Shown here: positions 50,436 through 51,356 of the stretch, one piece after another
How the letters are laid out: each line of letters starts with the position of its first letter
How positions within the stretch are numbered: the stretch's first letter is position 1
Assembly: GCA_902781655.1 (NCBI GenBank)
Contig: CACZJZ010000013.1
Location: forward strand, 17,363-81,362
DNA length: 64,000 bases
Origin: an uncultured Lachnospiraceae bacterium
GTDB taxonomy: Bacteria; Bacillota; Clostridia; Lachnospirales; Lachnospiraceae
Direction: 5' to 3'
Notes under the pieces: generated by a model
Databases searched by the model: none
What the model was told of the DNA's origin: nothing
Seen by the model: the letters and a program-made list of their open reading frames with translations, nothing else
Made by a program: the position numbers and the translations under genes

Positions 50436-50472
50436 TAAAATAAAAGCCCAGAAATCAAAGATTTCCAGACTT
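50436..50472 (-). terminator. Orphan terminator, probably the displaced tRNA-Met terminator
   Basis: Minus strand: AAGTCTGGAAATC and GATTTCTGGGCTT pair fully (with G-U wobbles) around TTT and are followed by TTATTTTA. It begins 6 bases beyond the copy of the tRNA-Met 3' end at 50479-50495, which is where a terminator for that tRNA would be expected if the intervening element were absent. Confidence 0.75.
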
Positions 50473-50478
50473 GTGACG

Positions 50479-50495
50479 TAGCGAGGGGGGACTTG
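50479..50495. repeat. Copy of the tRNA-Met 3' end (distal attachment site)
   Basis: TAGCGAGGGGGGACTTG equals the last 18 bases of the tRNA-Met gene at 51166-51183 apart from one G in the G-run, in the same orientation. Such a direct repeat is the usual footprint of site-specific integration into the 3' end of a tRNA gene. Confidence 0.8.
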
Positions 50496-50539
50496 GTTCG
50501 ATCGGGCGGCATGTATCAAGCCATATGGAAGAGGACAGC

Positions 50540-50568
50540 ATGACGCTTTCGTTATTTTCCGGCATAAT
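50540..50568 (+). promoter_or_regulatory. Predicted promoter of the antitoxin gene
   Basis: ATGACG (50540-50545), 17 bases, CATAAT (50563-50568), directly followed by operator-like repeats. Confidence 0.5.
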
Positions 50569-50570
50569 AT

Positions 50571-50598
50571 ACTTAGTTCATTACTAAGTTTACTAAGT
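50571..50598. promoter_or_regulatory. Operator-like repeats before the antitoxin gene
   Basis: ACTTAGT (50571-50577), ACTAAGT (50583-50589) and ACTAAGT (50592-50598): one inverted pair plus a direct copy, between the -10 and the ribosome site. RelB/DinJ-type ribbon-helix-helix antitoxins bind such short repeats to repress their own operon. Confidence 0.6.
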
Positions 50599-50614
50599 TG
50601 TGAAAGGAAATATT

Positions 50615-50875
50615 ATGAAAGATAGCAATACCGTAACCTGTTCCTTTACCATGGACAGGGATACTTATAACACCTACAAGAGCATCGTTACCAGGAATGG
50701 TGAAAATGTAAAGGGTAACATTATTAAGTACATGGAACTTGTCATCGAATACAATACTCCAAACCCAGAAACAATAGAGGCCATTGAGGAAGTCCAGCGT
50801 ATGAAAGCCGACCCGACAATCGGAAAGACTTATGACTCTGTAGACGATATGATGAGGGACCTGCTCAATGTATAA
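50615..50875 (+). CDS. RelB/DinJ-like antitoxin
   Basis: 86-residue protein with the make-up of type II antitoxins of the RelB/DinJ family. The N-terminal ribbon-helix-helix (VTCSFTMDRDTYNTYKSIV) and the C-terminal toxin-binding tail (EAIEEVQRM, then DSVDDMMRDLLNV) match that pattern. Start at ATG 50615 (MKDSNTV) after AAAGGAAAT; a GTG 15 bases upstream overlaps the ribosome site. Base composition is AT-richer than the neighbours. Its stop overlaps the start of a truncated toxin gene. Probably still made, autoregulated and without its own partner. Confidence 0.75.
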   Translation: MKDSNTVTCSFTMDRDTYNTYKSIVTRNGENVKGNIIKYMELVIEYNTPNPETIEAIEEVQRMKADPTIGKTYDSVDDMMRDLLNV

Positions 50876-50984
50876 AATCAGACCATCTGCAAAGCAGCCA
50901 CATATATGCAGTGGTATACGGTGGCATGTTGTTATGTGGCTGAGAGCCGCTATAATCCGGCGCATTCCTCCGGCATGTCACTGA
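50868..50984 (+). pseudogene. Truncated YafQ/RelE-type toxin gene
   Basis: An ATG overlapping the antitoxin stop (AATGTATAA) opens with MYKIRPSAK, the usual N-terminus of YafQ/RelE-family mRNA interferases. After about nine codons the similarity ends and the frame closes at 50984 (38 codons). The RNase fold, about 90 residues, is missing. The overlap is exactly the arrangement of an intact antitoxin-toxin pair. Confidence 0.65.
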
Positions 50985-51165
50985 GAAGATGAAGGAAAGA
51001 GAAAATGATATGCTCCGTAACGCAAAAATCTGCTGAGCAAATCACTCAGCAGACCGTCTCAAATCATGGGGCAAATATAGGGCAGAACATTGAGTTATTC
51101 TGCTGTGTCCTGCAATCAGGAATGCCGCAAATGCGCGGTTTGCAGAACCATGCTTTCTTAAAAAA
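50985..51165. other. Non-coding part of the integrated element
   Basis: No ORF with a ribosome site. Contains a perfect 9-bp-arm hairpin (51029-51037 / 51045-51053) and the direct repeats GGGGCAAATA and AGGGCAGAA (51068-51087). Confidence 0.5.
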
Positions 51166-51239
51166 TAGCGAGGGGGGGACTTGAACCCTCGACACTGCGG
51201 GTATGAACCGCATGCTCTAGCCAGCTGAGCTACCTCGCC
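51166..51239 (-). tRNA. tRNA-Met (anticodon CAT)
   Basis: 74-base cloverleaf on the minus strand: acceptor GGCGAGG/CCTCGCT, D-arm GCTC...GAGC, anticodon stem TGCGG/CCGCA with loop TTCATAC, T-arm GAGGG-TTCAAGT-CCCCC, discriminator A, no encoded CCA. The acceptor pairing and start G fit elongator tRNA-Met rather than the initiator; an Ile2 (lysidine) identity is less likely. TTTTTT follows directly, but the hairpin terminator seems to have been moved 670 bp away by an insertion. Confidence 0.95.
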
Positions 51240-51356
51240 ATAAACGCTTCAAAAAGTTTCAAGCGCTCGCGTTTTGCAACGCAAGTGTTATATTACCGTA
51301 TCCTTCTGATTTGCGCAAGAACTTTTTACACGAAAAGCCACAAAACTTTTTGCGCG

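Follow-up and report, generated by a model that had tools for sequence, protein, structure and literature searches.

The 64,000-nucleotide stretch of DNA analysed here (the window) contains a tRNA-Met gene that is followed on its own strand by several hundred base pairs of AT-rich DNA, beyond which lie a second copy of the tRNA 3' end and a terminator-like hairpin. The locus raises the question of how the gene came to be parted from what looks like its terminator, and of what the DNA between them represents. The features at the two junctions are as follows.

51165–51240, minus strand: tRNA-Met (anticodon CAT), read as restored (ARAGORN; Rfam RF00005, 59.1 bits)
51166–51183, minus strand: proximal att-like repeat, the last 18 bases of tRNA-Met (repeat alignment)
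50479–50495, minus strand: distal att-like repeat, read as the displaced host tRNA 3' end, one C shorter and with C as the next base (alignment; relatives)
50436–50472, minus strand: predicted hairpin and U-tract, read as the displaced original tRNA-Met terminator (pattern scan; position after the repeat as in relatives; aligns with the helicase-side terminator of G006)

The alignment agrees with the original prediction that the last 18 bases of tRNA-Met recur at 50479–50495 in the same orientation and one G shorter. On the tRNA strand, one C of a C-run is absent from the distal copy (G on the plus strand), and the two copies are spaced 687/688 bp apart. The 18-mer has two places within the window at up to 4 edits, namely the proximal and distal copies, and 20 shuffled windows gave no match to it at up to 1 edit. 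Nor is the 17-bp repeat common by chance in the genome, a possibility that had been raised against an insertion: with up to 2 substitutions allowed, the 17-mer occurs once in the organism's own 2.76-Mb draft genome, a count from which the tRNA itself falls out since the indel separates its end from the 17-mer.

A tRNA 3' end present twice on the same strand might be the remains of a duplicated tRNA-Met or a tRNA array with ordinary spacer between the copies. The DNA adjoining the distal copy has no detectable tRNA-like body, 513 of 2000 shuffles scoring equally well, and Rfam recognised no second tRNA beside it at E up to 10. Because this adjoining DNA is not tRNA-like, the distal copy is regarded as a 3' fragment, and a second, decayed tRNA at this place was rejected by the shuffle test and Rfam. 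A tRNA-Met match was found in 45 of the 62 genomes of the genus, the window's own included (the 17 without a match at E 1e-10 are outside all counts below), and 44 of the 45 have one match per genome, the exception being G002, in which it is split at contig ends. These results, and the fact that none of the relatives searched has the insert whole (see below), make a duplicated tRNA extremely unlikely.

The hairpin beyond the distal copy occupies 50472–50444 on the minus strand and its U-tract reaches 50436, so that the pattern scan agrees with the prediction of a terminator just past the repeat on the tRNA strand. The predicted fold alone is of moderate strength: its −13.3 kcal/mol (z −1.47) is matched by 19 of 200 shuffles, and the region contains 3 terminator-like sites by the scan where 1.3 would be expected. 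What makes the call convincing is the placement of the hairpin relative to the repeat rather than its fold energy. On the helicase side, the flank and the terminator also align with the corresponding position in G006, which is the closest of the relatives found (HelD 97% identical in amino acids).

The DNA that normally follows tRNA-Met was then read across the genus. The base directly after the gene is C in 41 of the 44 other loci, T in two (G002 and G059) and A in one (G071). A scripted terminator test, which asked for a hairpin starting no more than 15 nt after the tRNA and a T-rich tail, was applied to these 44 loci; downstream DNA was readable in 43, the contig of G068 ending 2 bases past the tRNA so that its C was counted and its terminator was not, and for G060 locus L074 was used, its contig position agreeing with that genome. 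A terminator directly 3' of tRNA-Met was found in 41 of the 43 readable genomes, as against 13 of 430 shuffled downstream stretches. The two failures were G071, which has a prophage at this position, and G057, which has a hairpin with too few T in its tail. In the window, the script found no terminator after the tRNA-Met gene; at the distal copy, the next base is C and a terminator follows 6 nt on. Since a C followed by a terminator is the pattern of the relatives, the distal copy and its terminator are taken for the host's original end, and what now follows the tRNA for newcomer DNA. The T that follows tRNA-Met in the window is by itself no mark of insertion, because G002 and G059 likewise have T there and yet have a terminator. 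An exact empty site, with tRNA-Met running directly into this very terminator, was not found in the relatives searched, all of which are draft genomes of the genus with no same-species strain among them.

The terminators of tRNA-Met vary in sequence between species, so other turnover happens at this locus too. At L071 and L072 (G003 and G013), a common 60-base flank upstream of tRNA-Met is joined to differing terminators downstream, a pattern that suggests replacement of the DNA after the gene.

A complete element at the same site is present in G071, where a 40.1-kb prophage is integrated at tRNA-Met (L157–L159, G071:C1, about 124.2–164.4 kb). Its integrase is a 413-aa protein (PF00589, 7.8e-20; PHROG integrase), the 3' end of whose gene lies about 75 nt past tRNA-Met, and the prophage also carries endolysin-like and replicative-helicase-like genes. 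A 21-bp repeat of the tRNA 3' end stands at both prophage ends, the distal one being followed by C and a terminator. The prophage and the window insert thus have in common the tRNA, the repeat region and the displaced C plus terminator; they differ in that the prophage has a full-length integrase, and there is no significant DNA similarity between them. The comparison bears out the proposal that the locus once consisted of tRNA-Met and a terminator that an insertion displaced: a terminator directly follows the gene in 41 of the 43 readable relatives, and the prophage has displaced the same signature.

Further element traces were found in G006 and G048. At the same junction, G006 encodes an 80-aa integrase C-terminus (PF00589, 2.1e-8) that shares 64% identity with the integrase of G071 across 76 aa; between its tRNA-Met and the helicase gene (L031 1–2420), two near-identical terminators stand around the integrase remnant, an ATPase/Schlafen-like ORF and a nucleoside-phosphorylase-like ORF. 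In G048, a 434-aa ORF beside tRNA-Met overlaps an integrase match (26% identity, E 6.7e-19). Both genomes, however, retain a terminator right after tRNA-Met despite the adjoining integrase sequences. Traces of elements are therefore present in at least 4 of the 45 tRNA-Met loci (the window, G071, G006 and G048), a count obtained by searching for relatives of the G071 integrase, so that others may be missed. In viral contigs, none of 14 stretches was confirmed as a relative of this integrase.

From these comparisons, positions 50479–51183 are very probably what remains of an integrative element, one that inserted at the tRNA-Met 3' end and later shrank by deletion. Its insertion would have been a site-specific recombination such as tyrosine integrases carry out. 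An attP on the element would have brought a copy of the last ~18 tRNA bases, by which the tRNA was restored, and the host's own 3' end, with its C and terminator, would have been pushed to the far side (the distal copy and 50472–50436). A later deletion would then have removed the integrase and nearly all of the cargo, so that an antitoxin gene and a toxin stump survive on the distal side, joined to a tRNA-proximal segment that contains a terminator-like hairpin. We infer both the integrase behind the insertion and the deletion itself. Points against a deleted element include that no exact empty site was found and that the distal repeat is one base shorter than the tRNA end. The features of the insert bearing on this reading are the following.

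50496–51165, no strand assigned: insert body, 670 bp, GC 0.427, without detected similarity to two tRNA-Met integrases
51027–51055, minus strand: predicted terminator-like hairpin about 110 nt downstream of tRNA-Met (pattern scan; largely within 50980–51052)
50868–50894, plus strand: start of a YafQ-type toxin gene (~9 codons), after which the sequence is unrelated (by-eye match to the L137 and pRJF2 toxin starts)
50615–50875, plus strand: intact antitoxin-like ORF, 86 aa, whose relatives are paired with YafQ-family toxins
50565–50595, no strand assigned: imperfect inverted repeat upstream of the antitoxin ORF (13-nt arms, 85%), like sequence upstream of the L137 relative

The GC content of the insert (0.427) is below that of the whole window (0.574), low values being usual for intergenic DNA too. 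The original prediction that the insert has no integrase held up: tblastn with the G071 and G006 integrases gave no match at E up to 10, and no integrase-like ORF was seen by eye among ORFs of at least 40 aa. PHROGs gave no trace of a phage gene in the insert, no relic of a conjugation or mobilization gene was recognised by Pfam and PHROGs in the submitted ORFs, and comparison with the G071 prophage or the G006 remnant produced only 14–17 bp matches with E of 0.12 or more.

Flanking direct repeats would also be expected if a transposon or MITE-like element had inserted and duplicated 17 bp of its target. No terminal inverted repeats were found at the insert ends, on which ground a transposon with target duplication was rejected; in addition, the repeat coincides exactly with the 3' end of the tRNA gene, which is where the G071 prophage has it too, and the own genome holds no further copies. 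An origin of this kind is hardly credible.

The insert was also searched for in other genomes. Outside the own genome, the only matches in the genus were of 73 bp and 48 bp, at other places, in 2 of the 61 other genomes (drafts of 63–99% completeness). In the relatives searched, the stretch is thus not ancestral and vertically conserved, a finding that had been named as one that would overturn the insertion, and an ancestral spacer was ruled out by the absence of the whole insert from the 61 genomes. Nor did the insert turn up at other tRNA-Met genes: it was not found whole in these 61 genomes or in 396 others drawn from the family, for each of which 2 first-look candidates were scored. The family search gave a match in 13 of 397 genomes, own included, and the longer matches (G337, G150 and G164) fall in the antitoxin ORF. 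A match in G195 to the tRNA-proximal end of the insert was set aside, its locus having no tRNA and the matched stretch being apparently coding.

The 73-bp match brings in another possible origin. Window positions 50980–51052 share 86% identity with DNA downstream of tRNA-Glu in G006 (L032 5581–5653), terminator-like hairpin included; at its own tRNA-Glu, the genome from which the window comes has different DNA across this stretch. The tRNA-proximal part of the insert might therefore have come from the terminator region of another tRNA by exchange between tRNA loci, with no integrative element involved. Such an exchange leaves the displaced 3' fragment, the antitoxin and the toxin stump unexplained, and the shared stretch begins about 12 nt past tRNA-Glu as against about 112 nt past tRNA-Met; we regard it as very unlikely. 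Transcription of tRNA-Met may now end at this hairpin (51055–51027); a T6 run also lies right behind the gene.

The remaining cargo is the antitoxin-like ORF. Its best relatives, among 18 other genomes with a match in a search of 299 (own included), are 61% and 58% identical and belong to two other genera; of 4 plasmid records, the best was Butyrivibrio fibrisolvens plasmid pRJF2 (NC_011376.1), at 64% identity over 94% of the length. In both L137 and pRJF2, the antitoxin relative is followed by a complete YafQ-family toxin. The ORF scores far under the cut-off of the NCBIfam model RelB_DinJ (E 0.081, 13.2 bits; cut-off 45.65) and has no Pfam antitoxin match, so the antitoxin label rests on the YafQ neighbours of its relatives. 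No homolog was matched in phage records, and the viral contigs yielded one partial relative, covering residues 44–84 of 86. The inverted repeat at 50565–50595 is a possible autoregulatory operator. Compared with type II RelB/DinJ-YafQ modules such as that of pRJF2, the window has a related antitoxin and a similar toxin start; it differs in that the toxin gene is cut after ~9 codons, with no intact toxin. The toxin frame opens MYKIRPSAK and then departs, and its end would mark a deletion junction. A perfect 10-bp inverted repeat with arms 28 nt apart (50895–50942) starts right where the toxin frame is lost.

The original prediction had offered two choices, a heavily deleted element or a tiny one moved in trans, and the cut toxin gene favours the first. 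The second would be a very small element unable to move by itself, which carried an antitoxin between its two att ends and was integrated as such by an integrase supplied by a prophage or ICE of the same tRNA-Met specificity. Its two att-like ends are indeed kept, its antitoxin ORF is intact, and integrase sequences occupy the same site in relatives. Against it, no second whole copy was found in the own genome or in the genus and family genomes searched as described above, the 20-base tRNA-proximal junction has no exact match in viral contigs, a search of the own genome for the G071 integrase gave no match at E 1e-15, and a truncated toxin is a sign of deletion; this origin is unlikely. It is distinctly unlikely that the unit is a minimal att-bounded islet with an intact antitoxin that is movable, or was moved, in trans by tRNA-Met-specific phage integrases, as a MITE-like partner of tyrosine integrases. 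If it were, the antitoxin could shield the host from related YafQ toxins on plasmids such as pRJF2. Because it is AT-rich and combines an intact antitoxin-like ORF with a toxin start of ~9 codons, the preferred reading of the insert is an integrative element that has undergone heavy deletion; the cut toxin gene is the strongest indication that the unit is debris of this kind.

The arrangement was compared with two described classes of element. In the Islander database of tRNA-gene genomic islands, an intact tRNA gene and a displaced 3' tDNA fragment in the same orientation mark the ends of an island, and the filters reject candidates shorter than 2 kb or without an integrase, the length range being 2–200 kb (PMC4383910). 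The window likewise has an intact tDNA and a same-orientation 3' fragment downstream, and its repeat, which spans the T-loop to the discriminator, would in our reading correspond to the T-stem-region type of site of that work. The insert differs from Islander islands in its length of 687 bp (~0.69 kb) and in that no integrase was found; on these two features it is not filed as such an island, and the Islander filters would pass it over. The second class is the CIME (cis-mobilizable element), which a review of IMEs gives as an element that has lost its integration and transfer genes but keeps attL and attR (PMC5704250, citing Pavlovic et al. 2004). At the sequence level, the insert looks like a CIME as so defined, having no integration or transfer genes and keeping attL- and attR-like ends; unlike a CIME, it has no sign of ICE/IME ancestry, and its att ends are putative. 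Because its ancestry could be ICE, phage or plasmid, it is not firmly filed there.

Insertion at the end of a tRNA gene is a well-known process, of which this insert is an added example. Comparing the base and terminator after the tRNA across a genus can separate host-derived from element-derived tRNA ends, even for an island below the size limit of a published finder and without an integrase. The comparison also indicates that elements have integrated at tRNA-Met repeatedly in this Lachnospiraceae genus. In G049, about 140 bp separate a distant relative of the G071 integrase (G049:C98:72049–73176, 23% identity) from another tRNA gene (73317–73389), and this may be a further tRNA-targeted element.
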